Assembly: GCF_003073045.1 (NCBI RefSeq)
Contig: NC_037593.1
Coordinates: forward strand, 11,332,735 to 11,396,734
Direction: 5' to 3'
From: Pomacea canaliculata
Taxonomy: Eukaryota; Mollusca; Gastropoda; Architaenioglossa; Ampullariidae
Length of the DNA stretch: 64,000 nt
Positions within the stretch are counted from its first letter, which is position 1. Each line of letters starts with the position of its first letter. Of this stretch, positions 2,224-53,555 are shown piece by piece. The notes under the pieces are model-generated. The model saw only the letters and a list, made by a program, of their open reading frames with translations. It made no database searches and had not been told where the DNA came from. Made by a program: the position numbers and the translations under genes.

Positions 2224-4777
2224 TTAATACTTTGCTTCCCAATAAGTCATGATTGGAGGGAGGGAACTCTCGTATCTCTGTAAAAGTTCTTGCGCCTTCT
2301 CCAGAGCCTCCTCCCCTTTGGTGACCAGCACAGTGTTGGATAACCCCGCCGTCCACGTGCGACGGAAGGAGGAGAGTTTGAAGTAGGGAGGGTTGTCGAT
2401 GAGCACGTGAGGGATTCCCAGCAGCACGGACAGGATGTGGCCGTGTAGTCGGTCAGTGATCACCACGCGCCCACGCTGCAAGAACGACAACCCGTTGAAG
2501 GCTATCAGAAACGAAGTCTCCATGGGTGTTCTCCCCTTGTTTGTCGTCCATTTCCACCAGTCTTCTACTTGCACCTTGAGGTTGGCGGGGATCTCCGGTA
2601 TCTTATAATTAGAAGACTCGCTATCACTTCTCTTAATCCACACGATGTCGTGTGTAGGCGGCATAGTGCGCGGGACACGCCCCAGGCCAAACGCCATGTC
2701 GGGCATCAGCATGAGTTTCGTCCCTGGAAAATGTTTCTGCGCCAGACCCAGCGACTGTCTGTCCCTCAAGAAGATGGTCAGGTTCTCCCTGTGGGAGTAC
2801 AGCTCCCTACACATGTTCAGATGCTTCTCGTGATCCTTGCGAATCCATATGCTCTGAGAGAGCAACACGCAGTGGAAGTCCGGGAAAAAATTCAAGATCT
2901 TTTTCCGCAAGATGTCCGACTCCGGGTACCCCACAAGGTTTCCACCTCCGTGGAGGAGGATCATGAGGGAGGATGGGGTGAAGTTCCTGCTAATTTTGTG
3001 TGCTTCCTTAAGCTTAGCATCACTACACATATAGATGGAGCAGTAGAACACCACTGTGACGTTGAGTCTCCGCAGCAGCGCCACCTCTCCCACGGTAATA
3101 GCGGGATCCCCTTTGTTCTCTGACGTAGAAAAGTCCAGTAGCATGACGTGACGTCGTCCCCCCAGCAATGACGTCATCACCTGCATGTGCAACCGCTGTA
3201 TCTCCCAGATGACCTCCTCGTTGGTGGTGAGATGAGGCGCCAGGCGGTCCGTGTCGAAGGGATGCTGGGTGTAGTCCAGAGACAGGAAGTCGGCCCACTG
3301 TGACAAGAGTGTGGCGTTGTCTGGTGGACCTGGCCAGTTGAGACCAAAGGGAGCTGACTGTGTACTCCATTCAGGTCTCAGCGGAAATGACTGCTGGTCG
3401 TCGTCTGCCCCCAGGTAACCCAAGGTAAGGTGAAGAGGTCGCAATGTGTTTACAGATGTGAGAGACAAGCATAATGCCGCACTGATGAGGGCTGCAGCCA
3501 GCACCTGACATCTTCCATTACTCGCCGTCAGTTTTCGGTACACGTGACCTGTGAAACAGAGTTCATCTACAGTGATGAGGATTGGAAAAGGTTTTAACCA
3601 CTTTGAACCATTGTCTGTAGTTGTTGATGTGTTGAGACTGAAGCTAACAGGATGGGTAAACGTTGTTCGTAAACATAGCCAACAAGTTTATTTTTTGTTT
3701 AATTTTTTTCAAGTGTTGTTACGCTTCTACGTGCACTACTTATTTTATTTTTAGTCAAATGATTATAAGTAACGGTGTATGTACATATCTATTACCTTTT
3801 AGATTAGTACCAACAGGGCAGCATCGCCAGCTCTCTGCTTTGACTGCAGCTTTCCCTCTGACGTACACAGCGAGTCCCACACTCGCCATCGCCAGGCCCG
3901 CAGCGTTGACGCCTGATGCACTGCGTGACCCGCTGACGTACAGCAGCGCCACCACTAACATGCGCTTGATGACGTTGGCCATAGCGTGACTGACCACGTC
4001 CAGCGCACGCAGGATGACGCTCGTGCTGATCAGCGAGTACGTCACGTGAAACACTCCCGACAGCAGCAGCGACGTCACAGCCAGATCGGTGCCAGGCGAC
4101 ACCACGCGACGGATGGCCAGGGTAGATGATGACGCCAAGATGACGAAAGACACTCCGGCCGTCAGACCAAGGCGATTCCACCCCATCCACCTGAGGCTAA
4201 CGTTTAGCTTACCAGAGTGCAGTCCCTTGATAGCCACGTTGCGGACAGCCAGTAGTACGTTAGATGCCATGGCCAGCATCACGCCAGAGGTCAGCGCCTG
4301 CTGCACATGCGTGACGTCATCAGAGATGAATACTAGCGCCCCGCCAACCACCAGAGGAAGGCTGACGCACACGTGACAGTTGAGACCCTCACGTAGCCAC
4401 ATCCACTGCACTATCGCGGATACCATGGGTTCCGTCAGCTTGATGGCCAACGTGGAGGCCGCTTCCATTCTGGCCAGACTCCAGTTGGTCAGAAACGTCG
4501 ACAGCACGTGCATCGTCATAGCAACGTAAGAACAAGCCTTGTCATCTTTGGTCGTCGTTTTCGTTACCTGTGCATCGTCCACGATGACCGACTTGTCCTG
4601 CGACATTTTGGTGACGAGACAGCAACACAGTAACTGCACCAACGACAGGACTGCAGCCGCACTCACGGGAGTGAGGACAAGAGTCAGCGCACTGACCTCC
4701 GTGAGGAAGACCTTGGCAGTGTGGTGACAGGCGTACGACGACACTGTCCAGGCGATAAAAGCTTTCAGAAGATTCAT
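2224..4777 (-). CDS. Fused TPT-type transporter and polysaccharide pyruvyltransferase, copy 1
   Basis: Two exons, 4777-3796 and 3548-2224, join in phase (AAAG|GTAATA ... TTTCACAG|GT) into 768 residues. Residues 1-307 hold ten hydrophobic segments and TPT-family signatures: AIKLTEP (Lys113), SNVLLAVRN (Arg179) and ANVIKR (Lys271-Arg272), the residue types that bind phosphate in plastid triose-phosphate translocators. An eleventh helix (about 341-361) precedes the pyruvyltransferase domain, which has GGGN (528-531), RDRQS (589-593) and DRLH (693-696), hallmarks of the family that transfers pyruvate ketals from PEP to sugars. NxT/S sequons fit a lumenal domain. Even helix count in the transporter plus one more helix puts the enzyme on the lumenal side. 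Exon 2 has no ATG near its start; its frame opens at the acceptor, so it needs exon 1. The enzyme core belongs to type A with copy 4. Role and PEP substrate are inferred. Confidence 0.85.
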
Positions 4778-4782
4778 GATGC

Positions 4783-5060
4783 TGAAGAAAAAATGATCCG
4801 AAAAAAAGTTATGGTGCCGTTGGTAAAGACCTGCAAGTTTAAAAAGTCAATAAGTATTGGTGAAAACGCGAGCGTAAAAACAACTAAAAAATATCTGTAT
4901 ATATGGAGGGAATTCTGATTTATCCTCCAGGGAAGTAAACCTTATTTCTGTACCTGCTGTTCCTGCAATGGCGGTGGTCATCTGTAGGGCGGAACTTACC
5001 TGTTAGGACGCTTTGTGAATTCTGCTTTGCAATGGTACTACGAGCCGACATCGAAGGATC
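4783..5060 (-). other. Predicted leader intron and 5' non-coding exon of copy 1
   Basis: Four bases upstream of the copy 1 ATG the minus strand reads TTTTTTCTTCAG|CATC, a good 3' splice site (exon begins at 4782). A strong 5' splice site, CCTAACAG|GTAAGT, lies at 5000|4999. This gives a leader intron of about 217 bp and a non-coding first exon ending at 5000. The same pair of sites is present before copy 3 (24318|24317). The transcription start is not clear; a TATATA stretch near 5220 is one candidate. Confidence 0.5.
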
Positions 5061-6900
5061 AGGAAAGAACACAAACCAGTTTTTTCTTGTGGGAACCTTT
5101 TTGATGCCTGTTGTCTAAACTTTCTAAAGTCACAAGGACCAGTAGGTAACGCTCCCACGGCCTGTATTCGTAAGAAAATCCAAATTAAGTGACTTTCCTT
5201 TACGCATGGTTTCTGCTATATATGACTGTCCATTACGACACCTGCGTTGACTTTTAACAGGTGTTCCACCCAAGCTCCAGCCTGACAAAGTCCAGGGCGG
5301 ATCGTCCCAGACGGCAAGACGCCAGGGTTTATTTTTTCACAAACGAAATGCTTATGTCCCGCTTTTCATTCGACTGAGTAAGCAAAGAAACTATTGTCGA
5401 GAACGCAATTAAAAAAATATTTTTACTGTACAATCTTATGTGTATATGAATGTGACAGTACAGTTGAATTGTGAATGAAAGTTATAAAGCTTTGACCATA
5501 TAGCTGTGTGTGACTGGGTTCTGGTCCTCTTCATAGAGCCAGTCGCTTGTTTCTGTCTTTCTGCTGTTTGTTACGAACGGAAAGATATCTGAGAAGAATA
5601 TATTCTCAGAAAATTTTGTATTGTAATTTCCCACTTTCGATTCCGAAAATAATACCTTATATAAGTCTCTAGAACTATTCATACATTAGCAGCACTTTGA
5701 CTAGTTTAAAGAAATGAAGCTTACCTGTATTGACACTTTAACATCAAAGCCAAATTTGTTGTGTTGAACTACAATGCCTCAAAAATGACAACCCTATTGC
5801 AAATATTTTCACGTGAGAAAAAGGAAATTACAAACGGAGTCTAGGCAGTGGGCAAGTACTGAATAACAAAATAAAAATGAGTCGTCCTTCCACTTCTCTG
5901 GCAGCTTCAGAGGAATCAATGAAGGCGTAAAAGGTTCATAGAAAATGGTTGATAAAACACAATAGCATGGCAGGCAGAGCAATGAAAAGTCGTGGGAAAA
6001 ACTCAGCCAACAATCAGACCTCCTGTGGACTGAGTACTTGACTAATAATGCTCACGAATAATCAAAGTACCATAAATTATGGACTTCTTCCCTAGCTTGA
6101 ACTTTGTCGGTAAAGTGGGCTATCAATGAGCTTACTATGCCAATCCTGCTGGTAACAATCTATGTCTTAATTTGAATTTTTTTACAAACAAAATGAACAT
6201 TTTTAAACATTATTATATCGAAACTGAGCCATAGAGTACAATCAGTTATATTTAAATATCAAACAGTTGTCACATCGCGCACCATCCACTTTCTAGCAAG
6301 CCTTGACATCTGCTTGCTCTCATAATACATAATACATAATACATAATACATAATACATATTACATAATACATAATACATAATACAGGACAGTCTACCTTT
6401 ACAGAACCTGTCAACATTGAATAACATCATAAAACGTTTCCCACAAGCCCCCAAGCATCAATAAAACTATACATTCCACGCTGTCTCCCTACCTCCTCAG
6501 GTATTGTTTTCTTCTGGTTCTTGCATACGCTGACATGTAGATATAGTAGGTATGCACGTGATTGTCTCACAGACAGGTGGTTAGACAGTCACACGCTTGG
6601 TGTTCAAGACAGGTCCTCCTGTGTTAACTCTGATTCTGATTTCGTTTTACACAGATGAATTGGTTTTGTAAACGGACAGCTCTGTCAGAAACAAAGCAAA
6701 CAGCAAAATAAACAATTGCATTAGATCGGGGAAAACTTAATTACCATGTCATCCGTTATTTCTAATTTCACGTTAGTTCAGTTATAAAACAGTAATGGCT
6801 GCAATGCCATTTTTCTTTAAATAACCAGTACTATAGAGACAGTCAGGTAAAGGTTCTAGATGAACACGTGCCTGGACTACTCTATAATATTTCTAATGAG
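5001..6900. repeat. 5' flank of copy 1, shared with the flank of copy 3
   Basis: Non-coding sequence that matches about 24319-25441 upstream of copy 3 over long runs, for example near 5030-5160 and 6660-6840. Copy 3 lacks the segment from about 5870 to 6580. Copies 2 and 4 have a different flank, so this similarity supports duplication of a two-gene block. A heptamer microsatellite sits at 6321-6384. No exon is evident other than the leader. Confidence 0.65.
6321..6384. repeat. Heptanucleotide microsatellite (ACATAAT)n
   Basis: About nine tandem copies of ACATAAT with one variant unit. It lies in the part of the copy 1 flank that is missing from the copy 3 flank, so it may have arisen after, or been lost with, that segment. 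Confidence 0.9.
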
Positions 6901-7004
6901 GCTAAAAGTTTCCCATCTATACCATTTTCATACAGAATATGCCAAAGTTTATTCATACTTATAGAATCAAATGCCTTACAAAAGTCTATAAACGCCTTAT
7001 AGCA
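6901..7004 (-). mobile_element. LINE reverse transcriptase fragment
   Basis: The minus strand reads through about 34 codons with the peptide AFIDFCKAFDSISMNKLW followed by HILYENGIDGKLL. This matches the reverse transcriptase block F-x-D-F-x-K-A-F-D-S-(I/V) ... LW-x-x-L-x-x-x-GI of non-LTR retrotransposons, including the first catalytic aspartate region. No other LINE parts are recognisable on either side, so this is a short relic. The clade cannot be set from so little sequence. Confidence 0.7.
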
Positions 7005-12496: not shown

Positions 12497-15044
12497 TTAA
12501 TACTTTGCTTCCCAATAAGTCATGATTGAAGGGAGGGAACTCTCGTATCTCTGTAAAAGTTGTTGTGCCTGTTCCAGAGCCTCCTCCCCTGTGGTGACCA
12601 GCACCGTGTTGGATAACCCCGCCGTCCACGACCGACGGAAGGAGGAGAGTTTGAAGTAGGGAGGGTTGTCGATGAGCACGTGAGGGATTCCCAGCAGCAC
12701 GGACAGGATGTGGCCGTGTAGTCGGTCAGTGATCACCACGAGCCCACGCTGCAAGAACGACAACCCGTTAAAGGCTATCAGAAACGAAGTCTCCATGGGT
12801 GTTTTGCCCTTGTTTGTCTCCCATTTCAACCAGTCGCCGACATAAACACTGAGGTTAGTAGGTATCTCGGGTACTTTATACCCTGAAGACTCATCATCTG
12901 CTCTCTTAATCCACAAGATGTCGTGGCTAGGCGGCATGGTGCGCGGGACACGCCCCAGGATAAACGCCATGTCGGGCATCAGCATGAGTTTCGTCCCTGG
13001 AAAATGTTTCTGCGCCAGACCCAGCGACTGTCTGTCCCGCAAGAAGATGGTCAGGTTCTCCTTGTGAGAGTAAATCTCACGACACTTATTGAGATGAGCT
13101 TGATGTCCTTTGTGTAACCAGATGCTTTGAGAAAACAAAATAGTCGGAAAATCCGGAAAACGATTCAAGATTTTTTCCCGAGTGATGTCTGCGATTGAGT
13201 AGCCGACCAGGTTACCGCCACCTTGCAATAGAATAATAAGCGATGTTGAGTTGTATGTTTTGCTTATCACCCTTGCTTTTGTAAGGTTCTTGTCGTTACA
13301 GAGATCAGTAGAACAGCTGAAGACTATAGTCACGTTGAGCCGCTTCAACAAGGCCACCTGTCCCGCCGTGATGGCGGGGTCGCCTTTGTTCTCGTAAGTG
13401 GCGAAGTCCATCAGCATGGCGTGACGTCGACCACCTAGCAATGACGTCAGAACCCGCACGTGCAGGCGTTGCATCTCCCACACCAGGTCGTCGTTGGTGT
13501 GCAGGGTGGGAGCCAGGCGGTCCGTGTCGAAGGGATGGCGGGTGTAGTCCAGAGACAGGAACTCGGCCCACTGTGACAAGAGTGTGGCGTTGTGTGGTGG
13601 ACCCGGCCAGTTGAGACCAAAGGGAGCTGACTGTGTCTCAGGTGTCAGCGGAAGTGACTGCTGGTCGTCGTCTGCCCCCAGGTAACCCAAGGTAAGGTGC
13701 AGAGGTCGCAATGTGTTTACAGATGTGAGAGACAAGCATAATGCCGCACTGATGAGGGCTGCAGCCAACACCTGACATCTTCCATTACTCGCGGTCATTT
13801 TTCGGTACACGTGACCTGTGAAACAGAGTTCATCTACAGTGATGAGGATTGGAAAAGGTTTTAACCACTTTGAACCATTGTCTGTAGTTGTTGATGTGTT
13901 GAGACTGAAGCTAACAGGATGGGTAAACGTTGTTCGTAGACATAGCCAACAAGTTTATATTTTGTTTAATTTTTTTCAAGTGTTGTTACGCTTCTACGTG
14001 CACTACTTATTTTATTTTTAGTCAAATGATTATAAGTAACGGTGTATGTACATATCTGTTACCTTTGATATTAGCACCAACAGGGCAGCATCGCCAGCTC
14101 TCTGCTTTGACTGCAGCTTTCCCTCTGACGTACACAGCGAGTCCCACACTCGCCACCGCCAGGCCCGCAGCGTTGACGCCTGATGCACTGCGTGACCCGC
14201 TGACGTACAGCAGCGCCACCACTAACATGCGCTTGATGACGTTGGCCATAGCGTGACTGACCACGTCCAGCACGCGCAGGATGACGCTCGTGCTGATCAG
14301 CGAGTACGTCACGTGAAACGCCCCCGACAGCAGCAGTGACGTCACAGCCAGATCGGTGCCAGGCGACAGCACGCGACGGATGGCCAGGGTAGATGATGAC
14401 GCTATGATGAGGAAAGACACTCCGGCCGTCACACCAATGCGATTCCACCCCATCCACCTCAGGCTAACGTTTAGCTTACCAGAGTGCAGTCCCTTGATAG
14501 CCACGTTGCGGACAGCCAGTAGTACGTTAGATGCCATGGCCAGAATCACGCCAAAGGTTAGCGCCTTCTGCACATGCGTGACCTCATCAGAGATGAATAC
14601 TAGCGCCCCGCCAACCACCAGAGGAAGGCTGACACACACGTGACAGTTGAGACCCTCACGTAGCCACATCCACTGCACTATCGCGGATACCATGGGTTCC
14701 GTCAGCTTGATGGCCAACGTGGAGGCCGCTTCCATTCTGGCCAGACTCCAGTTGGTCAGAAACGTTGACAGCACGTGCATCGTCATAGCAACGTAATAAC
14801 AAAACTTGTCATCTTTTGTCGTCGTTTTCGTTACCTGTGCATCGTCCACGATGACCGACTTGTCCTGCGACACTTTGGTGACGAGACAGCAACACAGTAA
14901 CTGCACCAACGACAGGACTGCAGCCGCACGCACGGGAGTGAGGACAAGAGTCAGCGCACTGACCTCCGTGAGGAAGACCTTAGCAGTGTGGTGACAGGCG
15001 TACGACGACACTGTCCAGGCGATGAAAGCTATCAGAAGATTCAT
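12497..15044 (-). CDS. Fused TPT-type transporter and polysaccharide pyruvyltransferase, copy 2
   Basis: Exons 15044-14063 and 13815-12497 join in phase (AAAG|GTAACA ... CACAG|GT) to give 766 residues. The transporter part keeps the phosphate-site signatures AIKLTEP, AVRN and ANVIKR. The enzyme part keeps GGGN, RDRQS and DRLH. The intron is 247 bp and almost the same as in copy 1. The stretch from about residue 430 to 590 belongs to core type B, shared with copy 3 (for example LQGGGNLVGYSIADI and QSIWLHKG), although the flanking parts are nearly identical to copy 1. Exon 2 again opens at the acceptor without an ATG. The upstream acceptor next to the ATG (TTTCTTCAG|CATC) predicts a non-coding leader exon, whose donor I cannot place with confidence. 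Function as in copy 1: probable Golgi PEP import coupled to glycan pyruvylation. Confidence 0.85.
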
Positions 15045-17283: not shown

Positions 17284-19463
17284 TCAACACCTTTTAATTT
17301 CTTCCTGTAATCTATCAATGTCTGACTGAATCTTTGTTATCTCCTTCTTCTTGTCTTTGGCTAACAAACGCATGTTGTTAGATCTTTCAATAAGTGAAAA
17401 ACTTTTTTGCTCTTCAGCCTGGAAACTATGTCTGTCAGCCAGTTCCAGCAGGTGTCGTTCTTCGGCACTGGTGGTCTTTAGCCTTTTTGTGAGTATTACC
17501 AGCTCATCTCCTAATCTCTTTCTGTGGACCTGCTTTTCTTCTGTTTCCTTCTGCTGCTTCTGCTCAGAGAGGTAACGTTGATACCTGCCATAGGCACTAG
17601 AAGCGGATATCATCAGTGGTTTGGAGATCTCAACATTTTCCACCCCTCCCACACTGTGAATATGATCAAGAATTACTCTGCGTGCTTTTAGTGCAGTCTG
17701 GCAAAGATTGTCAGCTACTGTTTCTTTGTTGAATGAAAATCCTCTTTCCACTGTAGCTTGACCATGAGAGAGTAGGAGTAATTGTCTGACAACAGACCAT
17801 AACACCTGAAACTCTGCTTTTCCAGCAAGGGCATCATAAAACCAACTATCCAGTCTTTGTGTCATAGGGTCAAAAGCCTTACTACCACACTCACCTGCAG
17901 AACTGTCAAGAAAATTACGGAACTCTGACAATACCTTGTCACAAGTCACATCATCAAACCTTTTCACACCTTGGCAATACAACAAAACCTTTTTCATTTT
18001 TTGTATTGATTTGTCTTTTTCCCCCCATGGTCTTTGGGTTTAAGAAAGTTATGTTTCTCACTAGGGGGTACAGGTAGTCCTCGGGTTACGACGGTCTCGA
18101 GTTACGTCGTTTCGTGGTTACGACGCTCATTCCGACTTGCGAGGTCAGTGCATCAAAGAAAAGGAAGGCCATCACCATGGAGGTGAAAGTGGATATCATA
18201 AGGCAATCTGAGAAGGGGAAACAGCAACAGAAATTAGCAGGTCATTAGGACTTAGTCGTTCGACTGTCGCTACGATTATCAAGGATAAAGATCGCATCCT
18301 TGAACACGTGACAGGATCTGCTCCTATGAAAGCGACAGTGACAACAAAGTGTACTGTACTGCACAATGTTTTACTGTACTTATGTTTATTGATAATTATG
18401 TAGGGTACTGTGTTAGGATACGTGTTTGGATAGGCTAAGTGTTTGCAGTACTGTACTGTTATTATGGTACAGTACTGTATGAACGTATGATCCGACTTAC
18501 GTCGAAATTCGGTTTACGACGCCGCGTTAAGAACGGATCCCCGTCGTAAGTCGAGGACTACCTGTACTTCAATGGAGATTTATCCTGCAATTTTAGAACA
18601 ACTGCTTTCAAAAAAATCTCTGCATTCAGCTCTGAAGGCCATGACAGTTCCATCGTTTACTGATGACTGTTTCTTAGCTACAGCCAGTAGTCTATCAACC
18701 CTGAAGCCAAGTTCTATCATGCTCAGATTGACATGGTTAGAACTGTTGCATATATCAACCTGCACAAGTTGGAGGGCAGTTTCACATTTATTAAGTACAT
18801 TTGACTTGACAAATTTGCGCATCAGATTTTTCATAATGTCATGTAAGTCTAAACAAAGGAAAGGAAGAAGAGGCTGATCAGTTTGGTATTTTCTCAAAAA
18901 AGGTTCAAGTATACTGGCAATTAAACTAAAGAAAGCCAGACGACATGTCGTGAAAGCAAAGGGGTAGATAAGACTCCAGCTTTTACAATATCAAAAGATT
19001 TGTTCTTTGGCAATGCTATTTTTTTCTCCATTGGAGCTTTGACAAATGTTTCCAAGTCTGGAAGCATAACAATTGCTTTTTCAGCAACAGAATTGTTTTC
19101 AAGCCATCGGTGAGCACAGAACTTGGCTGGAAAAGATGTGGAACCAGTTACTTTTATATAATCTTCTCTTCTGGCTGGGCTGTCTCTGAACAAGATATAA
19201 GCAGCGGGCTGTGGATGTTCTCGATGACGAAAGTAATCAGTTACACAAAAGCGAGCGTCTTTCAGAAATACTTTTATTTGCCTTTTATGTCTTTCGGTAA
19301 CCATGTGCTTTTTCAGAACACTTTCGCCCATTGACGAAAGATTCAGAGATATTTTGCAGGCAGCACATCGTGCCAAATGTTTATCGCTCGAGTCTTTTAT
19401 TAACCAATCTTTATACTTGTCTTCCTTTAGCCACTTCTCCTGAAAAGAGCACTTCCCCGGCAT
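17284..19463 (-). pseudogene. hAT transposase, interrupted
   Basis: Three minus-strand blocks lie in order. Block 19463-18921 begins MPGKCSFQEKW and has C-x2-C ... H-x5-H (RCAACK ... KKHMVTERHK), a BED-type finger. Block 18897-18580 is a middle segment without a nameable motif. Block 17997-17284 ends the protein and includes LLLLSHGQATVERGFSFNKE, close to the hAT dimerisation signature, followed by a charged coiled-coil-like tail. Block two and block three are split by the Tigger-type insertion at 18071-18564. Blocks one and two are separated by a stop and a frame change, so the element cannot make its own transposase. Confidence 0.7.
18071..18564 (+). mobile_element. Non-autonomous pogo/Tigger-type element
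   Basis: Near-perfect terminal inverted repeats of about 20 bases (CAGGTAGTCCTCGGGTTACG and, at the right end, the complement of CAGGTAGTCCTCGACTTACG) are flanked by TA duplications at 18069-18070 and 18565-18566. The interior keeps the start of a CENP-B-like transposase (TMEVKVDIIRQSEKGKQQQK and, after a frame change, LSRSTVATIIKDKDRI), the helix-turn-helix N-terminus of Tigger proteins. The catalytic part is absent, so this is an internally deleted copy. It inserted into the hAT transposase and is therefore younger than it. Confidence 0.85.
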
Positions 19464-19770
19464 CTTTCAAATTGTTAAGCAGACAAAGAAATGTGGTCGA
19501 AACGACGAGAGTGAACTCGCGAAAGGCCGAAACGGACGTTCCCGCCGCGAGCGAGACTGGGTAGTCATGTGATTAAAATAGCAATGCGGCGAAAAATCGT
19601 CGGTATTTTGCGCCAAAGTCGACTCCGAAAATAAATTTGTGGTAATATTTTATCGACATAAGGACTTGTAAGGGTCACAGAAAAAATGTAAGTACCTGTG
19701 TGAGAATTTGTAAGGACCGCATGGCAAATATAAGGACTTGTAAGGACCTTGTAAGGACCTGGGAACCATG

Positions 19771-20951: not shown

Positions 20952-23900
20952 TTAATAATAAGTCATAATTGAAGGGAGGGAACTCTCGTATCTCTGTAAA
21001 AGTTGTTGTGCCTGTTCCAGAGCCTCCTCCCCTGTGGTGACCAGCACCGTGTTGGATAACCCCGCCGTCCACGACCGACGGAAAGAGGAGAGTTTGAAGT
21101 AGGGAGGGTTGTCGATGAGCACGTGAGGGATTCCCAGCAGCACGGACAGGATGTGGCCGTGTAGTCGGTCAGTGATCACCACGCGCCCACGCTGCAAGAA
21201 CGACAACCCGTTGAAGGCTATCAGAAACGAAGTCTCCATGGGTGTTTTGCCCTTGTTTGTCTTCCATTTCAACCAGTCGCCGACATAAACACTGAGGTTA
21301 GTAGGTATCTCGGGTACTTTATACCCTGAAGACTCGTTATCACTTCTCTTAATCCACACGATGTCGAGGGTGGGTGGCATAGTGCGCGGGACACACCCCA
21401 GGCCAAACGCCATGTCGGGCATCAGCATGAGTTTTGTCCCTGGAAAATGTTTCTGCGCCAGACCCAGCGACTGTCTGTCCCGCAAGAAGATGGTCAGGTT
21501 CTCCTTGTGAGAGTAAATCTCACGACACTTATTGAGATGAGCTTGATTTCCTTTGTGTAACCAGATGCTTTGGGAAAACAAAAGAGTCGGAAAATCCGGA
21601 AAACGATTCAAGATTTTTTCCCGAATGATGTCTGCGATTGAGTAGCCGACCAGGTTACCGCCACCTTGCAATAGAATAATAAGCGATGTTGAGTTGTAAC
21701 CGTTACTTATCTCCCTTGCTTTTTTTAGGTTGTCATCGTTACAGCGTCCAGTAGAACAGCTGAAGACTATAGTCACGTTGAGCCGCTTCAACAAGGCCAC
21801 CTGTCCCCCCGTGATGGCGGGGTCGCCTTTGTTCTCGTAAGTGGCGAAGTCCATCAGCATGGCGTGACGTCGACCACCTAGCAATGACGTCAGAACCCGC
21901 ACGTGCAGGCGTTGTATCTCCCACACCACCTCGTCGTTGGTGTGCAGGGTGGGAGCCAGGCGGTCCGTGTCGAAGGGATGCTGGGTGTAGTCCAGAGACA
22001 GGAACTCGGCCCACTGTGACAAGAGTGTGGCGTTGTGTGGTGGACGTGGCCAGTTGAGACCAAAGGGAGCTGACTGTGTCTCAGGTGTCAGCGGAAGTGA
22101 CTGCTGGTCGTCGTCTGCCCCCAGGTAACCCAAGGTAAGGTGCAGTGGACGCAATGTGTTTATAGATGTGAGAGACAAGCATAATGCCGCACTGATGAGG
22201 GCTGCAGCCAACACCTGACATCTTCCATTACTCGCGGTCAATTTTCGGTACACGTGACCTGTGAAACAGAGTTCATCTACAGTGATGAGGATGTTCATTT
22301 TGGGTACGTAACATAGTTTTTTTTCTTTATTATATAAGTTACTGTAATGGTGTCGTTTTACACGATCTTTCAACAGTTGTAGTTACTAGTACCTCTGAAG
22401 TATTACTTATGGATTCCGGGAGTCAACCCAAACTAGCAGAGAAATTAACCACAGTTGCTGAGCAGATGAGTAAGTCTTGTTACTAAGTAACCCACCTCTT
22501 ATTTCCGTAGAAACTGTAAGAATACGTATGCTCTGTTGGCTTAAAAGCAAAACAGTAACACTAATACTAAAACAAATAAATTTAAAAGCAATACCAACAT
22601 GCCAAAAGTCAAATTTATTAACTAAAACAAAAGTTTTCTTAAAGCAAGTATTAAATGATAAATGTACTAATTTATTTTAACAAGAGACAAAATGGCCAAA
22701 GGATAAAGACAACATACGCATTTTAACATTAGTTTCTCTATTTATGACTTTAGTTACTTATTGATTATTAATTCAATAAGAACTTTATAAAATATTTTTT
22801 CAAAATACTGTGCCCGACATTTTTTTTGAGCTAAATAAGTTTCGGCAAAGAAATTCAATAAATTACCGGCTATCAAAACGACCTGTCGGTCTACACTCCG
22901 ATTCGACAAGGTTTTAACCAGTTTTAACCATTGTCTGTAGTTGTTGATGTGTTGAGACTACGGCTAACACGATGAGTAAACGTGGTTCATAAACATAACC
23001 CATAAGTTTATTTTTTGTTTAATGCTTTCAAGTGTTGTTACTCTTTTACGTGGACTACTTATTTTATTTTTAGTCAAATGATTATAAGTAACGGTGTATG
23101 TACATATCTGTTACCTTTGATATTAGCACCAACAGGGCAGCATCGCCAGCTCTCTGGTTTGACTGCAGCTTTCCCTCTGACGTACACAGCGAGTCCCACA
23201 CTCGCCACCGCCAGGCCCGCAGCGTTGACGCCTGATGCACTGCGTGACCCGCTGACGTACAGCAGCGCCACCACCAACATGCGCTTGATGACGTTGGCCA
23301 TGGCGTGACTGACCACGTCCAGCGCGTGCAGGATGACGCTCGTGCTGATCAGCGAGTACGTCACGTGAAACGCCCCCGACAGCAGCAGTGACGTCACGGC
23401 CAGGCTGGTGCCAGGCGACAGCACGCGACGGATGGCCAGTGTAGATGATGACGCCATGATGACGAAATACACTCCGGCCGTCATACCCATGCGATTCCAC
23501 CCCATCCACCTCAGGCTAACGTTTAGCTTACCAGAGTGCAGTCCCTTGATAGCCACGTTGCGGACAGCCAGTAGTACGTTAGATGCCATGGCCAGCATCA
23601 CGCCAGAGGTCACCGCCTGCTGCACAAGCGTGACGTCATCGGAGACGAAAACCAACGCGCCGCCAACCACCAGAGGAAGGCTGACGCACATGTGACAGTT
23701 GAGACCCTCACGTAACCACATCCACTGCACTATCGCGGACACCATTGGTTCCGTCAGCTTGATGGCCAACGTGGAGGCCGCTTCCATTCTGGCCAGACTC
23801 CAGTTGGTCAGAAACGTCGACAGCACGTGCATCGTCATAGCAACGTAATAACAAGCCTTGTAATCTTTTGTCGTCGTTTTCGTTTTCTTTGCATCGTCCA

Positions 23901-24096
23901 CGATGACCGACTTGTCCTGCGACACTTTGGTGACGAGACAGCAACACAGTAACTGCACCAACGACAGGACTGCAGCCGCACTCACGGGAGTGAGGACAAG
24001 AGTCAGCGCACTGACCTCCGTGAGGAAGACCTTGGCAGTGTGGTGACAGGAGTACGACGACACTGTCCAGGCGATGAAAGGCTTGAGAAGACTCAT
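20952..24096 (-). CDS. Fused TPT-type transporter and polysaccharide pyruvyltransferase, copy 3
   Basis: Exons 24096-23115 and 22258-20952 join in phase (AAAG|GTAACA ... CACAG|GT) to give 762 residues. The transporter signatures AIKLTEP, AVRN and ANVIKR and the enzyme motifs GGGN, RDRQS and DRLH are intact. The C-terminus ends IMTYY, four residues shorter than copies 2 and 4, because of a small deletion that removed the last codons. The enzyme core is type B, as in copy 2. The intron is 856 bp and related to that of copy 4, while copies 1 and 2 lack about 600 bp of it. In this copy an in-frame ATG (MNILITVDEL) lies just upstream of the acceptor, so a stand-alone enzyme could in theory start in the intron. 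The 5' flank and leader splice sites match copy 1. Confidence 0.85.
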
Positions 24097-25445: not shown

Positions 25446-28327
25446 GGCGGCAGGATCACCCAGAATGGTTGAAAAAAAATTTTTTTTCAATGACAGTAAT
25501 TTAAGATGTGTCATTTTATTCGCAAATCTTTTCTTTTTCAGAGGGCAAGTTAAACTTTTGCCACAGCTATGTAGTTTTTTTAGATAATTGCATCTACACA
25601 GGGTAGGGGTGGCATGTCAGAATGCTCCAAAATGGTGGAAAATAACATTCAGTCACCTGCAACATGACACACAAATAATAACCGCTTTCAATATAACTTC
25701 TAAATATTAATTACTCCCTACTTCCGTGCACTTCAGCCAAGTTGAAAGCATGGCTTTGTGATTGCTTTTAGTGACATTTTAATTACACTTTGGACCGATT
25801 ATTGTGGCTACAGTTGTGTGACACTGTAACTATGGCTAATGATCGTAAGTACGGACCTTCAAAGCCTAAAAAACGCAAATTTTGTGGTAACCGGTACTCA
25901 AAAGAAAAAGCAACAGTGGGAAAAAGCATACGAAGCGCTTTCAGCAACATTTGTTATATAGGCAATTCAACTGTCAGTTCAGAAAGTTATTGTGAACAGG
26001 TGGACACGCCCACTAGATCAGAACAGAAATTACAAGATCTGTACGAGTTGGTGTTTGACTGTAGTTCAGAGGGGGAATATGAAGAAGCAGATTGTGAAAA
26101 TGACACTTCTGAAAGTGAAGAAGATAGCACAACTCTGGATATTGTTGTTGAAAATCCAAAAGGAAATAGAATAATAGATGTAGCAATCCTAAGTGAAACT
26201 GTTTCATCGAACTTGGTGTGCCGTTACTGTCACCATACTGTTAGGTTGTTTGAATGCAAAGAAAGGGACTGGCAAGTACATTTGTATTTCATTGTAGCAA
26301 TAGAAACTGTAATATGCAATATGCTTTCTCATCCTCACCTCAGACGTCTGTAGGCAATGCATCTGTAAACTTAGTGAACAGGCAGGCTGCTTTTCCTATG
26401 CGATGCATAGAAGCAGACAAGAGAGAGTTAGAGACTTTTTGTGGGGTAATGGATTTACCAAAGCCAGTTAGTAAGAGTAGCTACACAGCTATACAGAAAA
26501 CTATTCATAAAGCATGTACCACTGTACAAAATATCAGCATGCAAGCAGGTACAGCACAAGAGTATGAACAGGCAGAAGAAGTAGAAGGTGATGAAAACAG
26601 AGACATTCATGTTTCAAATGATGGGACATGGATGACTGTAGGCTTCTCATCCAAGGTAGGTGTTGTGACAACTATTGGCATGAAAAATGGAAAGGTTATT
26701 GACACACAATCAAAAAGCAAAAGTCTGTAAATCATGTGATTATTGGAAAAAACAAGACCCCAACTCTGACAAATACTGTGCATGGGCAGCGGCTCATGCC
26801 GCAGACTGCACACTAACACATGAAGGTTTTAGTGGGTTGATGGAGGCAAGCTGTACATGTGACATTTTTAAAAGATCAGTTGAGCAGTACAAACTCAGAT
26901 ACACAGGGTTTGTTGGTGATGGGGACACTAACACTTATAAAAAAATGAGTGACAGCATGCCCTATGGTAACAAAAACATTGACAAGCTTGAATGTGTGGG
27001 ACACGTCCAAAAGCGAGTAGGCACAAGACTTAGAAACCTTAAAAAATGTACCAAAGAAGTTCTTAGTGATGGAAAAGGACTTGGTGGAAAAGGGAGACTA
27101 ACAGAAGCTGCTATTGATAAATTACAATGTTATTATGGAAATGCTATCAGGGAACATAAACATGACATTGTCAAGATAAGAGAAGCAGTTTGGGCAGTAT
27201 ACTTTCACAAGGGTTCTTCCGATGAAAAGCCTGTTCACAACTGTTGTGATGTTAGCTGGTGCCCCTTTCTGAAGGCTAAAAGAAATGGTAAACCATACAT
27301 TCATAAAACAACTACCTCCCTTCTGCTGTCATGAATTATATAAAACCTGTATGGAAAGACCTTGGCAAAACAGAGCTTCTAACAAAGTGTCTAGGTGGCT
27401 ACACACAAAACCAAAATGAGTCACTCAACAGCAGCATATGGAAGTTGTGGCCAAAACCAAAGAATCATGGACTAAAAACTGTTGAAACAGCTGTTGCAAT
27501 TGCAGTTTCCATGTTCAATGACGGCTGCACTAGTCTAATGGCTATTCTGAGGATGATGGACAGATGATGATCCGGGACAGTTTTGTTGCACGTTCTGTGA
27601 AGAAGCTGATGTCGAGCGTTTGAAAAATGCACAGCGACAGGCAAGATTGGCTTCCAAGGCTCTTCGCCAAGCTAGGAGACGCAGAAGACTGGGTGCTGAT
27701 GAGCAAGAAGCTGAGAGAGACGGTCATCCCAACCAACCTGGAGGATACTGACTGCTTTTGGGTAGAAAAATATTCATTTTCTGTGTGCCAAACTTTAACG
27801 AAAACCTATGTTAGTGCTGACTGTCTTTCAGTTATTTTCCACATTTGTTAACATATTTTCTTGAAACTTTGCACATATACTCCCAGATGGAGTGGCTCTG
27901 GTATGAACTAAAATCCCATGCCTATGTTTAATACTTTTTAAGATATAAGGGCACAAAAGCTGTATTTTTGACAAAATGTTAACACTTTTTAAAGTCTTAC
28001 ATCACAGACAAACCAGATACACTAGAATAATGACAGTAGTTCATGCTACAGCTACACGTCTTCTCCAAATGTAGAAAAAGTATTTTAGCTCAGTCTCTGG
28101 GTCTAGACCAGTTCTGAAGTGTAGGCTAGTTTTATTAGTGTCGCGAGGGTATATTTTTTATTTATTTAATTTTTTAAGCCCTTTCCTCATTCCAGAAACC
28201 ATCAAGATGTCAGTATCTTAAAAATACAGAAACTTAACCACATTCTGACCAAATTTTATGTTTATACATTAATTAGTTGGCCTATGTCATTCAGAACAAA
28301 TTTGGTACCCAGTTTTGGGTGATCCTG
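25446..28327 (+). mobile_element. Kolobok-like DNA transposon flanked by TTAA
   Basis: The element is bordered by TTAA at 25442-25445 and 28328-28331. Its ends carry an inverted repeat, CAGGATCACCCAGAA on the left (after five extra bases, GGCGG) and the complement of CAGGATCACCCAAAA on the right. The interior encodes a transposase of the Mutator-like type common in animals. TTAA target sites and this transposase type together suggest the Kolobok superfamily; the superfamily name is from memory and less certain than the element itself. The AT-rich 3' third (27760-28320) has no coding signal. Confidence 0.75.
25832..27750 (+). pseudogene. Kolobok/Mutator-like transposase, frameshifted
   Basis: The start MANDRKYGPSKPKKRKF is basic, as usual for this family. 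A CRYCHHTVRLFEC ... FHCSNRNC zinc-ribbon-like region follows near 26220-26310, then DGTWMTVGFSSKVGVVTTIG (near 26625, first catalytic aspartate region), YTGFVGDGDTNTYKK (near 26910), ECVGHVQKRVGTRLRNLKK (near 26995), GGYTQNQNESLNSSIWK (near 27395) and a basic tail ALRQARRRRRLGADEQ (near 27665). Frame changes are needed near 26260, 26700, 27320 and 27560, so about four frameshifts inactivate it. Confidence 0.75.
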
Positions 28328-30251: not shown

Positions 30252-33200
30252 TTAATAATTTGCTTTCCAATAAGTCATGATTGAAGGGAGGGAACTCTCG
30301 TATCTCTGTAAAAGTTGTTGTGCCTGTTCCAGAGCCTCCTTCCCTGTGGTGACCAGCACCGTGTTGGATAACCCCGCCGTCCACGTGCGACGGAAGGAGG
30401 AGAGTTTGAAGTAGGGAGGGTTGTCGATGAGCACGTGAGGGATTCCCAGCAGCACGGACAGGATGTGGCCGTGTAGTCGGTCAGTGATCACCACGCGCCC
30501 ACGCTGTAAGAACGACAACCCGTTAAAGGCTATCAGAAACGAAGACTCCATGGGTGTTCTCCCCTTGTTTGTCGTCCATTTCCACCAGTCTTCTACTTGC
30601 ACGCTGAGGTTAGTAGGCATCTCGGGTACTTTATACCTGGAAGACTCATCATCTGCTCTCTTAATCCACACGATGTCGACAGTAGGCGGCATTGTGCGCG
30701 GGACACGGCCCAGGCCAAACGCCATGTCGGGCATCAGCATGAGTTTCGTCCCTGGAAAATGTTCCTGCGCCAGACCCAGCGACTGTCTGTCCCGCAAGAA
30801 GATGGTCAGGTTCTCCCTGTGGGAGTAGAGCTCCCTACACATGTTCAGATGCTTCTCGTGATCCTTGCGAATCCATATGCTCTGAGAGAGCAACACGCTT
30901 TGGAAGTCCGGGAAAAGATTCAAGATCTTTTTCCGCAAGATGTCCGACTCCGGGTACCCCACAAGGTTGCCACCTCCGTGGAGAAGGATCATGAGGGAGG
31001 ATGGGGCGAAGTTCCTGCTAATTTTGTGTGCTTCTTTAAGCTTAGCATCACTGCACATGAAGATGGAGCAGTAGAACACCACTGTGACGTTGAGTCTCCG
31101 CAGCAGCGCCACCTCTCCCACGGTAATGGCGGGATCCCCTTTGTTCTCTGACGTAGAAAAGTCCAGTAGCATGACGTGACGTCGTCCCCCCAGCAATGAC
31201 GTCATCACCTGCATGTGCAACCGCTGTATCTCCCAGATGACCTCCTCGTTGGTGGTGAGATGAGGCGCCAGGCGGTCCGTGTCGAAGGGATGCTGGGTGT
31301 AGTCCAGAGACAGGAAGTCGGCCCACTGTGACAAGAGTGTGGCGTTGTGTGGTGGACCTGGCCAGTTGAGACCAAAGGGAGCTGACTGTGTCTCAGGTGT
31401 CAGCGGAAGTGACTGCTGGTCGTCGTCTGCCCCCAGGTAACCCAAGGTAAGGTGCAGAGGTCGCAATGTGTTTATAGATGTGAGAGACAAGCATAATGCC
31501 GCACTGATGAGGGCTGCAGCCAACACCTGACATCTTCCATTACTCGCCGTCAGTTTTCGGTACACGTGACCTGTGAAACAGAGTTCATCTACAGTGATGA
31601 GGATGTTCATTGGACATACGTGACAGTCTTATTTTTTTGCACCTAAGTCACTGTCACTGTGACAGAAAGTTTTCTTTTTGATTTAAATGATCTCTTTTAA
31701 CATTAGTACTATGACAAGCACGTACGGTCATCAACAGGCACTCCAAAGCTGGTCCGGAACTAGCAAATTAAACTTTCCTGACAAAATAAATCACAATTTT
31801 TGAGTAGATGAGTAAGTGATGTTACTGAGTAACATACTCCTAATTTCCAAAGAAAAGATTACGTATACCTTTTTCGGTCAAGGACCGGAATCCTACCACT
31901 AAAAAAAAAAAATAAAAAAATAAAATAAAACGAAACAACAAAAAAAAAATCCTGAAAAAGTAGTTACAATAAGCCACAAGTCAAATATATTCACCAAAGC
32001 AAAATAATGTTCGTCAAGCAAGTATAAAATAATAAACATATCAGTTCATTTTGACTTAAGGCGGAAATGACTAACAGAAAAAAAAACAACATACTAATTT
32101 CAACAATTAGTTTTCTTTTTACGAATTCATTTACTGTCTGATGTATAATTAAGTTTAATTTACTTTATGTATAAAATATTAAATTTGCTGGTTCTTGAAA
32201 CATTTATGCGCGGTCCTGCTAAATTAGGTACAGCAACCGCCACATTTATTGCACATGAGAAAGAATTGTCAAAAGTGTCCCTCAGATATATTAACAGTAA
32301 AACGATGTGTACTCAGGATCTCCGCCAGGCTGAGCTGCGCCCTAGGTGAGAGACAAATAGTGCACCCCACCATAGGCCCTGTCTGAACTTCGACCCCTAG
32401 TACATAAATACACGTTGTTAGCCACTGTCTGTGGTTAGCTGACTTGCCCAGACTAAGTATGCTAATAGGTTGGGTACATGTGCTTCCTAAATACAATCCC
32501 TGTCAGGTATTTAATTTTTTTTTACTTTTTCGTGTCAATGCTTTTTCACAATTGAATGAACTCATTTCTTTATCTTTAGTCAAAGTATGTAGCGGTGTAT
32601 GTACATATCTGTTACCTTTGATATTAGTACCAACAGGGCAGCATCGCCAGCTCTCTGCTTTGACTGCAGCTTTCCCTCTGACGTACACAGCGAGTCCCAC
32701 ACTCGCCACCGCCAGGCCCGCAGCGTTGACGCCTGATGCACTGCGTGACCCGCTGACGTACAGCAGCGCCACCACTAACATGCGCTTGATGACGTTGGCC
32801 ATGGCGTGACTGACCACGTCCAGAGCTCGCAGGATGACGCTCGTGCTGATCATCGAGTACGTCACATGAAACGCACCCGACAGCAGCAGTGACGTCACGG
32901 CCAGATCGGTGCCAGGCGACAGCACGCGACGGATGGCCAGTGTAGATGATGACGCCATGATAACGAAAGACACTCCGGCCGTCATACTAATGCGATTCCA
33001 ACCCATCCACCTCAGGCTAACGTTTAGCTTACGAGAGTGCAGTCCCTTGATAGCCACGTTGCGGACAGCCAGTAGTACGTTAGATGCCATGGCCAGCATC
33101 ACGCCAGAGGTCAGCGCCTGCTGAACAAGCGTGACGTCATCGGAGACGAACACCAACGCGCCGCCAACCACCAGCGGGAGGCTGACACACACGTGACAGT

Positions 33201-33597
33201 TGAGACCCTCACGTAACCATACCCACTGCACTATCGCGGATACCATGGGCTCCGTCAGCTTGATGGCCAACGTGGAGGCCGCTTCCATTCTGGCCAGACT
33301 CCAGTTGGTCAGAAACGTCGACAGCACGTGCATCGTCATAGCAACGTAATAACAAGCCTTGTCATCTTTTGTCGTCTTTTTCGTTTTCTGTGCATCGTCC
33401 ACGATGACCGACTTGTCCTGCGACACTTTGGTGACGAGACAGCAACACAGTAACTGCACCAACGACAGGACTGCAGCCGCACGCACGGGAGTGAGGACAA
33501 GAGTCAGCGCACTGACCTCCGTGAGGAAGACCTTGGCAGTGTGGTGACAGGCGTACGACGACACCGTCCAGGCGATGAAAGCTTTGAGAAGATTCAT
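30252..33597 (-). CDS. Fused TPT-type transporter and polysaccharide pyruvyltransferase, copy 4
   Basis: Exons 33597-32616 and 31570-30252 join in phase (AAAG|GTAACA ... CACAG|GT) to give 766 residues. Transporter signatures AIKLTEP, AVRN and ANVIKR and enzyme motifs GGGN, RDRQS and DRLH are present. The enzyme core is type A as in copy 1 (LHGGGNLVGYPESDI), but the next variable stretch is mixed: ADDESSRYKVPEMPTNLSV follows copy 2 and QVEDWWKWTTNKGRTP follows copy 1. This is a clear mosaic. The intron is 1045 bp, the longest of the five. Reading through the donor gives 36 extra residues before a stop, against 12 in copies 1-3. As in copy 3, an in-frame intronic ATG precedes the acceptor. The 5' flank resembles that of copy 2. 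Confidence 0.85.
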
Positions 33598-47384: not shown

Positions 47385-47392
47385 GTCTAGAC

Positions 47393-50360: not shown

Positions 50361-50368
50361 GCTACGTG

Positions 50369-50376
50369 TATAAATA
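50369..50376 (+). promoter_or_regulatory. Candidate TATA box of gene copy 5
   Basis: TATAAATA in a GC-balanced context, about 25-30 bases before a probable start near 50397-50400. It is followed by a plausible leader exon with a donor at 50444|50445 (TAAA|GTGAGA) and the strong acceptor at 50732 (TCTCTTTTGCAG). This is the best promoter candidate in the window. Confidence 0.45.
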
Positions 50377-50396
50377 ACGCCGACAGCCAGCCAAGA

Positions 50397-50732
50397 AGTT
50401 AGTGTGACCATCAGGCAAGACGTTGAACCGTTCTTAACTGTAAAGTGAGAGATTGTTTAGTAAGCTTTGTCATATTTCGTTTGTAAACTGTATTGAATCT
50501 TTTAATTTCCTTGGCTGGACATAGACATCGGTGGACACAAACAATAAATTTTTTTCTATATGAAGTTCAACGCTCCTTGTTTAGGCTTGCCGATGTTCAG
50601 GCGCGGCTCTACCAACGGTAAAAGAATGGTTAGTCTCTGAAAACATTTGGTATTCAGATTGAATCCCCATGTCACGAAGATGTCGGTAATAATAATTAAA
50701 ATGTATCAAATGTCTCTCTTTCTCTTTTGCAG
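50397..50732 (+). other. Predicted leader exon and intron of copy 5
   Basis: The acceptor at 50732 (CTTTCTCTTTTGCAG|TTGCC) is strong and leaves a 110-base untranslated stretch before the ATG at 50843. The donor is less sure: 50444|50445 fits the TATA position, while CAACG|GTAAAA near 50620 would use an exon beginning after TTGTTTAG near 50580. The latter text (TTTAGGCTTGCCGA) resembles TTTAGGCTCGCCGA in the inter-unit repeats, so part of that repeat may derive from an upstream exon of this gene family. Confidence 0.4.
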
Positions 50733-50842
50733 TTGCCTAAAGTGTTCCATTGAATGCGACCTGTTTGAGAGTTATCTGCCCTTAACCGCCACCGACATTA
50801 TCCTTCACGCGCACCTGCCGCCAGAAGACATTCGCCATCAGC

Positions 50843-53555
50843 ATGAAGCTCGTCGCCGCCTTCATTGCCTGGATCATCTCATCGTTCGCATGTCATCACC
50901 TGGCCAAGGTTTTCCTGGCGCAGGTCACAGGCTCTCTGCCGCAACTCAACCCTGCCTGCCCAGCGGCCATCTTGACCGGGGTTCACATGCTGTTCTGCTG
51001 GCTAATGACAGCGAGATGGGAGGACGGCAAGCTCCCGGCGGACTCGTCCTCAGCTCACCGTCTGGCCAACCAGAGTTCAGAAGCGAACTTTCACTTCCGC
51101 GTTTCCATGGCGATGCACGTGCTGTCCACGTTTCTGACCAACTGGAGTTTGGCAACCATGGATGCGGCATCTACCCTGGCCATCAAACTGATGGAGCCGC
51201 TGGTGTCCGCGCTGGCGCAGTGGGCATGGCTCGGACAGTGCTTGCGTTGCAGCGGGTGGGTCAGCCTGCCCTTGGTTATCGGCGGGTCGCTGGCCTTCGT
51301 CTCCAAGCCTTCCCAGCAGGCACAGAGCGAAGCACTCGTCACAGGCGTGGGCCTCGCCATGGGCTCCAACGTTTTGCTGGCCGTCCGCAACGTTGCCGTC
51401 AAGGGACTGCACTCGTGTCACGTGCACGTGGGCCCGCGGTGGTCGCGCCTGAGGTTGTCGGCTGGAATACTGGGCGCAACGCTGCTGGCCGCAATTCTCT
51501 TGGAGACTGAGGGTGCGGTGCCACGTGGGACCCACCTGGCTGTGACGTCACTGCTGCTGTCGGGGGCGTTTCACGTCACGTACTCGCTGATCAGCACGAG
51601 CGTCATCCTGCGCGCGCTGGACGTGGTCAGTCACGCCATGGCCAACGTCGTCAAGCGCGTGCTGGTGGTGGCGCTGCTGTACGTCAGCGGGTCACGTAGT
51701 GCGTCGTTCGTCAACGTCGCGGGGCTGGCGGTGGCGAGTGTGGGGCTGGCTGTGTACGTCAGAGGAAAATCTGAGGGCAAAGCAAAAGTTAGGAATCGTG
51801 GAGACGTCAGCATAAAAGGTTTAATTTGCACATATTCATCCGCGTAAACAAGCGGAGTGTTTTCATACAATTTCTCGCATTTTTAATCTTCAAACATTAC
51901 GTTTCATACTTAAATATAATTTTATTTTAATACACTGAAATGCGGGCATTCACATACTTCACTTTAAACAAGCTGCAATTTTTATTCGTTTGAACAGACA
52001 ACTTGCTAGAATATGACGTATGTTTACATCAAACAGATAAACAAACAAACAAAAATACTGTGCAGGTACCCAGAGAAAGAAAATATTACGATTTATCTTA
52101 TATACATACAGATTTATTATTAACCAGCGTACCTACTTCAAGTTCATCTAGTGCAATCATTCTGTTGTTCATTCGATAATGTCTATTCACTTCACATATT
52201 TTCTTTACCCTCCCATTACAGGTCTCCTGACACCGAAGAGTACCACGGCCAAGTTGGTGAGCTTGACCCTGGTCACCTGCCTTTCCACGTGTTTGCTACT
52301 GTCCCTCTCGGCACCAGTCAACCTGTCCGTCTGTCTGCTGCAGCTGTCGCCTGTTAGGGAGGATTCGTCCTCCGGGAACCACGCTAGGAACGTCCTCCTC
52401 CCGGCACCGACAGAGAATTCTCCCTTTGGCCTTCACTGGCCGGGGCCCCCAGCCAACTACACCCTCCTGGCGCAGTGGAGCGAGTTCATGTCACGTGACT
52501 ACGTCCACCAAGACCCGTTCGACACGAACATGCTGGCGCTGCAGCTTAGCAACAACGACGACGTCATCTGGGAGATGCAGAGGCTGCAGACGACAGTGCT
52601 GGCGTCCGTGCTGGGCGGCCGGCGACACGTCATGCTGCTCGGCTTCGCCATGTCGGAGAACAAGGGCGACTCGGCCATCACGGCGGGCGAGATGGCGCTG
52701 CTGCGGCGACTCAACGTCTCTGTGGTCTTCTGCTGCGAGATACGGAACTGCAGCGACGCCAGCCTGCAGCGAGCGTGGAACATCAGCAGACACTACAACT
52801 CCTCGTCCCTCGCTATCCTCATGCACGGCGGCGGCAACCTCGTGGGCTATCCCTTGGCGGACTTCGTTCGGCGGAAGATTCTCGGCCTTTTTCCAGACTT
52901 CCCATCGGTATTGCTGTCACAAAGCATATGGCTCCACAAAAGGAATGAAGCACATGTTAATGAGTGTCGAGAGCTCTACTCCCACAGGGAGAACCTGACC
53001 ATCTTCTTGCGGGACAGACAGTCGCTGGGTCTGGCGCAGAAACTTTTTCCAGGGACGAAACTCATGCTGATGCCCGACATGGCGTTTGGTCTGGGGCGTG
53101 TCCCTCGCACTATGCCGCCTACACACGACATCGTGTGGATTAAGAGAAGGGATTTTGAATCTTCTGGGTATGAGTTACCCGATTTTCCCGCAAACCTTAG
53201 TGTGTATGTGGGTGACTGGTGGAACTGGAAAACAAATCCAGGTATGTCACCCATGGAAACTTCCCTCTTGATGACCTTTAACGGGTTGTCGTTCTTGCAG
53301 CGTGGGCGCGTGGTGATCACTGACCGACTACACGGCCACATCCTGTCTGTGCTGCTGGGAATCCCTCACGTGCTCATCGACAACCCTCCCTACTTCAAAC
53401 TCTCCTCCTTTTGGCGCACCTGGACAGCGGGTCTGTCTAACGTTGCCCTGGCGACCTCAGGTGGAGAGGCACTCGTAAAAGCTCAAGAACTGCTGAAAAG
53501 GTGGAGCGGTGTTATTCCTCCTGCTATGCTGTGTTTGAAAGATGAATGTTCATAA
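50843..53555 (+). CDS. Fused TPT-type transporter and polysaccharide pyruvyltransferase, copy 5
   Basis: Exons 50843-51818 and 52222-53555 join in phase (AAAG|GTTTAA ... CATTACAG|GT) to give 769 residues. This is the diverged, inverted member and it still has the same exon layout and phase, which argues that the fusion is old and selected. The transporter keeps AIKLMEP, AVRN and ANVVKR. A single hydrophobic helix (LVSLTLVTCLSTCLLLSLSA) starts exon 2 and is followed by GGGN, RDRQS and DRLH. Many NxS/T sequons (NYT, NVS, NCS, NIS, NLT, NLS) suit a lumenal domain. Its donor, GTTTAA, is weaker than in the array. Reading through it would stop after nine codons, yielding a transporter alone. Large parts differ from the array, but 51535-51765, 52979-53150 and 53280-53420 are nearly identical at the DNA level, including silent sites. 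Confidence 0.88.

Follow-up and report, generated by a model that had tools for sequence, protein, structure and literature searches.

Do the transporter-type and pyruvyltransferase-type reading frames that recur side by side in a 64,000-nucleotide stretch of the Pomacea canaliculata genome (C4:11332735-11396734, hereafter the window) encode one protein or two, and what might such a protein do? An initial annotation, made from the letters of the window, had proposed five genes that each splice a TPT-type transporter to a glycan pyruvyltransferase within a single polypeptide. Our analysis supports this proposal: one spliced polypeptide per pair is the most likely arrangement, with splicing predicted from equal phases in 13 of 13 pairs, short introns, a conserved donor site and the lack of a start codon in seven of 13 enzyme exons. 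We further propose, at a probability of roughly 0.72, that each intact pair forms a single gene of two exons, encoding a Golgi protein that would import phosphoenolpyruvate (PEP) and pyruvylate glycans in the lumen, its splicing, localization and activity all being predictions from sequence.

The array and its paired exons

The family identities claimed for the two halves hold in copies 1 and 5, the two that were scanned. Exon 1 matches Pfam TPT (PF03151) with E values of 5e-15 and 2e-13 (56.1 and 50.8 bits versus a cut-off of 30), and exon 2 matches Pfam PS_pyruv_trans with E values of 2.8e-21 and 4.9e-23 (77.1 and 82.9 bits versus a cut-off of 25.3). All ten exons lie where the initial annotation had placed them, and the junctions at 3796/3548, 14063/13815, 23115/22258, 32616/31570 and 51818/52222 are correct to the base.

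Copies 1 to 4 are on the minus strand. In copy 1 (K1), the transporter exon at 3796..4777 comprises 327 codons plus the first base of the junction glycine, and is followed by a 247-bp intron at 3549..3795 (donor AAAG/GTAATA, acceptor TTTCACAG/GT) and by exon 2 at 2224..3548, which encodes a linker, a membrane anchor, the pyruvyltransferase and the stop; the top 19-residue hydropathy window past the junction marks a predicted extra helix at residues 342-360 (3451..3507). Copy 2 (L2) carries its TPT-type transporter exon at 14063..15044, a 247-bp intron at 13816..14062, and an anchor and pyruvyltransferase exon with a mosaic core at 12497..13815. The same elements lie at 23115..24096, 22259..23114 (an 856-bp intron) and 20952..22258 in copy 3 (M3), where the enzyme core is mosaic like that of copy 2, and at 32616..33597, 31571..32615 (1045 bp) and 30252..31570 in copy 4 (N4). 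Copy 5 (O5) is on the plus strand: its transporter exon (50843..51818), 60% identical to that of copy 1, precedes a 403-bp intron (51819..52221) with a weak donor (AAAG/GTTTAA) and a strong acceptor (CCCATTACAG/GT), and the anchor and pyruvyltransferase exon spans 52222..53555, with the predicted extra helix at residues 337-355 (52254..52310).

All five proposed copies are thus present in the window, and the array as a whole is larger, with 15 transporter/pyruvyltransferase pairs in about 140 kb recovered by tblastn over 190 kb. The proposed order, a transporter exon upstream of an enzyme exon on the same strand, extends from the five window pairs to all 15; along the array, eight pairs lie on the plus strand, then six on the minus strand, then one on the plus strand. 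Both halves are intact in 12 of the 15 pairs; of the remaining three, B is broken in exon 1 only, and A and C in both exons. Junction counts omit A and C, leaving 13 pairs, and the substitution-rate table and the test of transporter residues omit B as well. Copy C (C4:11260306-11263889, outside the window) shares 31-43% identity with the query copies and, though divergent and broken, is still a pair, which makes the association of transporter and enzyme look old.

We then searched the whole genome (440,159,624 bases in 24 contigs), with only the best candidates scored. The pyruvyltransferase family PF04230 returned 15 hits, all above the Pfam cut-off and all within the array, and a transporter-protein query returned 17 hits, every one of them also within the array; accordingly, no intronless (retro-)copy, which would have favoured splicing, was found outside it. 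PF03151 returned 24 hits, 14 in the array and ten elsewhere, at five places on C1, C2 and C10. Both domains were recovered in all five window copies by these searches. In the same assembly, contig 24 is a mitochondrial genome of 15,707 bp that uses the invertebrate code; its gene order, which resembles that of caenogastropods, is COX1-COX2-ATP6, a gap free of forward frames of at least 85 residues (presumably the rRNAs), ND1-ND6-CYTB-ND4L, an ND4 that was not recovered whole, and ND5-COX3-ND3-ND2, in keeping with an animal source.

Predicted splicing across the exon junction

For the 13 pairs, donor and acceptor were picked by homology first and scored afterwards, using simple weight matrices. 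A phase-1 donor joined to a phase-1 acceptor gives an open frame in every pair, 12 of them full length (741-774 residues). Within the window, this agrees with the equal phases and open spliced frames of 762-769 residues previously claimed: all five copies join phase 1 to phase 1, and their products of 768, 766, 762, 766 and 769 residues (copies 1-5) each end in a single terminal stop. Although the final transporter residues are poorly conserved between groups of copies, the last two codons of the exon-1 frame, which make up the donor site, read AAA-GGT in every pair but E, where they are GAT-GGT (12 of 13 and one of 13). The chosen donor is the top scorer of its tail in 10 of 13 pairs and the chosen acceptor is the top scorer in eight, with donor scores of 6.4-11.3 in nine pairs. 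In blastn comparisons of the introns (n = 13), eight of nine within-group comparisons matched (F-H did not), as did none of the four between groups. Both halves are under purifying selection, with ratios of nonsynonymous to synonymous substitution (Ka/Ks, ratio of means) of 0.33-0.44 for the transporter core and 0.24-0.35 for the enzyme; where computable, the ratio is looser in the short transporter tail (0.41-1.30) and in the anchor region (0.59-0.92).

Several observations weigh against splicing as drawn here. Four donors are weak (1.4 in F and G, -0.3 in H and -0.6 in O5), and in H and O5 other GTs of the tail score somewhat above the chosen one. E contains a better-scoring phase-1 donor, 27 bases upstream of the chosen one, as well as a better-scoring phase-2 acceptor that lies 14 bases upstream, and an alternative acceptor outscores the chosen one in D, G, K1 and L2. 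In-frame ATG codons stand 4-16 codons before the acceptor in B, D, M3, N4 and O5 (on the intron side, 13-14 codons ahead, in copies 3, 4 and 5), and L2 has one six codons past the junction, so that a separate enzyme start is possible in all of these; the earlier claim that no ATG occurs close to the start of exon 2 consequently stands for copy 1 and fails for copy 2. The introns of K1, L2 and M3 each contain an AATAAA/ATTAAA-type motif 46 bases from their start and five bases past the transporter-frame stop, which makes a transporter-only transcript possible there. Finally, the copies are mutual duplicates that fall into about four groups, and counts of 13 out of 13 do not represent 13 independent events.

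Could each pair instead be two separate adjacent genes that were duplicated as a block? The transporter would then terminate at a stop codon of its own, within a few codons of the Lys-Gly (K-G) of the donor site, and the enzyme would rely on a separate promoter or on a first exon hidden in the gap. The transporter frame does stop 11-194 bases past the proposed donor, polyadenylation-like motifs occur in 10 of 13 introns, and the weak donors and the ATGs ahead of the acceptor in five enzyme frames would suit such an arrangement. However, in six of 13 pairs the intron measures just 245-403 bp, which leaves little room for two genes, as the end of one, the promoter and the start of the next would all need to fit. 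Seven of the 13 enzyme exons (E, F, G, H, I, J and K1) have no in-frame ATG between the preceding stop and the start of the anchor (in G and H, an ATG falls inside the anchor window), and past K-G even closely matching copies differ in the sequence and length of the transporter tail, while the AAAG-GT donor persists. Together with phases that agree throughout, these points make two independent genes quite unlikely.

Transcripts ending within the intron could alternatively yield a transporter-only protein alongside the fusion, at least in the K1, L2 and M3 group, where the motif closely follows an in-frame stop. Such dual output is possible but doubtful: the introns of F, H and O5 carry no motif of this kind, the position of the stop ranges as widely as given above, and AATAAA-type motifs are common in AT-rich introns. 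We rejected the idea that the array consists mostly of decaying, functionless copies, which the broken A and C and the broken exon 1 of B might suggest; it is very improbable given the 12 pairs (of 15) with both halves intact, Ka/Ks values well under 1 in both domains and the retention of the catalytic residues of the enzyme in 13 of 13 copies. Of these readings, a single gene per pair, with predicted splicing, is the likeliest.

Topology, substrate and acceptor site

TPT/SLC35-type transporters have both chain ends in the cytosol. Hydropathy windows of the snail transporter are compatible with ten helices, some of which merge or drop under the threshold. Past the junction, a hydrophobic anchor-like window (1.51-2.05) lies within 45 residues in 13 of 13 copies, and later enzyme windows reach 1.5 in J, L2 and N4 only (1.53-1.59). 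The loop ahead of this extra helix contains 5-10 Lys/Arg versus 1-3 Asp/Glu. In all 13 copies its charge is more positive than that of the sequence behind the helix, a positive-inside pattern on which the proposed topology, in which the extra helix puts the enzyme in the lumen, holds up. Because the transporter ends are cytosolic and a single further helix follows a positive loop, we predict that the enzyme lies on the lumenal side, as a probably membrane-anchored protein with a lumenal catalytic domain; four to nine sequons per copy lie past the junction.

The residue signature of the transporter half fits phosphate-type substrates without proving PEP. In a MAFFT alignment, all 12 full exon-1 copies share T188, K204, Y339, K362 and R363 with 5Y78, whose residue numbers were assigned to the chain using an offset of 89. 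We take T188, H185 and Y339 to be translocator site residues. K204, K362 and R363 are named as the translocator phosphate site (PMC11661312). In the two copies scanned, exon 1 also matches TIGR00817, 'Tpt phosphate/phosphoenolpyruvate translocator', at 6e-12 and 8.5e-14, and its protein would work like a phosphate/PEP translocator yet not be filed as a TIGR00817 member, as its 45.7 and 51.8 bits fall far under the curated cut-off of 317.9.

That shortfall counts against PEP, as do other observations, and together they could be read as a fused protein whose transporter half moves a nucleotide sugar or sugar phosphate, with the fusion providing shared localization and not substrate supply. All 12 copies have Thr where the plant-type site has H185. 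Two unfused TPT-type genes, on C10 and at C2:27.89 Mb, align to the TPT structure sequence and also have the K-R pair, which is therefore not PEP-specific. However, the five site residues listed above are retained in every full copy, and the transporter gene at C2:37.73 Mb, presumably GDP-fucose-type, lacks the K-R pair. Moreover, in fission yeast the pyruvyltransferase Pvg1p depends on the PEP transporters Pet1p and Pet2p (PMC4872226). On balance, we regard a non-PEP substrate as rather unlikely. Profile and single-sequence (phmmer) searches of the transporter against the PDB gave chance matches only and did not hit 5Y78. AlphaFold2 models built from the five window copies (of 13) were of low confidence, with a mean pLDDT of 34.5 for the transporter and 41.6 for the enzyme, which weighs against the overall reading. 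Both PEP as the substrate and the identity of the acceptor sugar are putative.

For the enzyme half, the best PDB match of copy 5 exon 2 is Schizosaccharomyces pombe Pvg1 (5ax7; E = 1.1e-42, phmmer), with which the 13 copies share 32-36% identity over 301 aligned residues. With Pvg1 numbering placed on the 5ax7 chain by a worked-out offset of 53, D106, R217 and R337, the catalytic residues of Pvg1 (PMC4872226), are retained in 13 of 13 copies. The position of H168, by comparison, is never His in the snail, being I, F, T, L, S or A. In Pvg1, this residue has been proposed to hinder N-acetyllactosamine (LacNAc) and was mutated to gain LacNAc activity (PMC4872226). No part of the enzyme varies more across the 13 copies than the loop aligned with H168, of the form Y-x-x-x-D: among 370 gap-free enzyme columns, the residue immediately preceding the H168 position ranks first by entropy, and the H168 column is tied third with the column three further on. 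Three windows with the top nonsynonymous values (pN), out of 364, cover the H168 position; the synonymous value (pS) is raised there too (0.65 versus 0.34), with pN/pS of 0.59 versus 0.34. Because pS is high alongside pN around H168, we do not claim positive selection on the acceptor loop.

Some enzyme cores also appear to have been exchanged between copies. Relative to copy 1, copies 2 and 3 are 93-94% identical in the transporter and 95% identical in the anchor region; their enzyme cores share 74-76% identity with copy 1 (74% for copy 2) and 84-87% with D, F, G and H. The pattern resembles gene conversion, with the A-H type as the apparent donor of the enzyme core in copies 2 and 3 (12497-13815 and 20952-22258, minus strand).

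Elsewhere in the window, several frames at 25775-27334 (plus strand) represent pieces of a Mutator-like transposase, with a PF20700 match at E = 4e-30 for 26684-27331. Frames at 17284-18039 and 18921-19466 (minus strand), which by eye we take to resemble zinc-finger/transposon-type gene pieces, gave no Pfam match above cut-off. A 694-codon Cys/Ser-rich open frame at 61790-63874 (minus strand), in a tract of 60% GC, is probably non-coding.

A proposed mechanism and its relation to known systems

Conservation of the site residues in both halves supports PEP import and pyruvyl transfer, and suggests the following scheme. Exon 1 would encode a complete TPT/SLC35-type transporter, and exon 2 would contribute one further membrane helix and a Pvg1-type pyruvyltransferase, with the mRNA spliced across the junction. 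As the transporter ends would be cytosolic, the extra helix would deliver the enzyme to the Golgi lumen. There, the transporter half may exchange phosphate for incoming PEP, from which the enzyme half may move pyruvate onto terminal galactose or a comparable sugar, forming a 4,6-ketal and freeing phosphate that the transporter could carry back out. The fusion would set importer and enzyme at equal amounts in one place, and the copies may have diversified later, chiefly in the loop aligned with the acceptor-choice residue of Pvg1.

Each element of this scheme has a known counterpart. Like the snail enzyme, Pvg1 belongs to the PF04230 family, has D106, R217 and R337, and has a predicted transmembrane stretch ahead of the domain (PMC4872226); it differs in being a separate protein, whereas the snail enzyme is joined to a transporter, and in having H168. 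Pet1p and Pet2p, the S. pombe Golgi PEP transporters that serve Pvg1p (PMC4872226), resemble the snail transporter half in proposed role, namely PEP supply to a Golgi pyruvyltransferase, and they too are separate proteins in yeast. With plastid-type TPTs (5Y78/5Y79), the snail transporter shares a Pfam TPT match above cut-off and the retained T188, K204, Y339, K362 and R363, but it has no sequence match to 5Y78, has Thr at the H185 position and carries an attached enzyme. CsaB and bacterial PS_pyruv_trans proteins have the same Pfam domain, and a Rhodobacteraceae homologue reaches 31% identity (best segment); against TIGR03609 (CsaB), however, snail copy 5 scores 20.7 bits, far under the cut-off of 213.1. 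Bacterial and viral relatives were absent from a first genome-contig scan and from one viral-contig scan, and a second genome scan, with Pvg1 added to the alignment, gave two loci, too few to bear on origin. SLC35-MGAT Golgi assemblies likewise hold a donor transporter and a transferase together in the Golgi membrane (PMC6453868), as a complex of separate proteins where the snail would have one chain.

Pyruvate on animal glycans is known chemically, from sea hare glycolipids and sponge glyconectins (PMC6994554), and the passage on pyruvylation in that source names a pyruvyltransferase gene for yeast alone (PMC6994554). Neither an animal pyruvyltransferase gene nor a transporter-transferase fusion appeared among the literature matches listed, in a search that mostly left subscription papers outside, and the main text of the P. 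canaliculata genome paper contains no word starting with 'pyruv' (PMC6129957). Both domain families are thus known, and a one-chain PEP importer and pyruvyltransferase in an animal would, as far as those listed matches show, be a new combination.

Collectively, the array may be pictured, tentatively, as a constant importer and anchor fitted with exchangeable enzyme cores and copy-specific acceptor loops, with conversion swapping cores as in copies 2 and 3, and with the snail capping a range of glycans with pyruvate to give them a sialic-acid-like charge. The array provides direct candidate genes, from a mollusc, for the making of pyruvate-capped animal sugars, and with them a set of natural variants for testing acceptor choice. 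A natural fusion of donor importer and transferase would also lend weight to the view that transporters and transferases of the Golgi act as units (PMC6453868).

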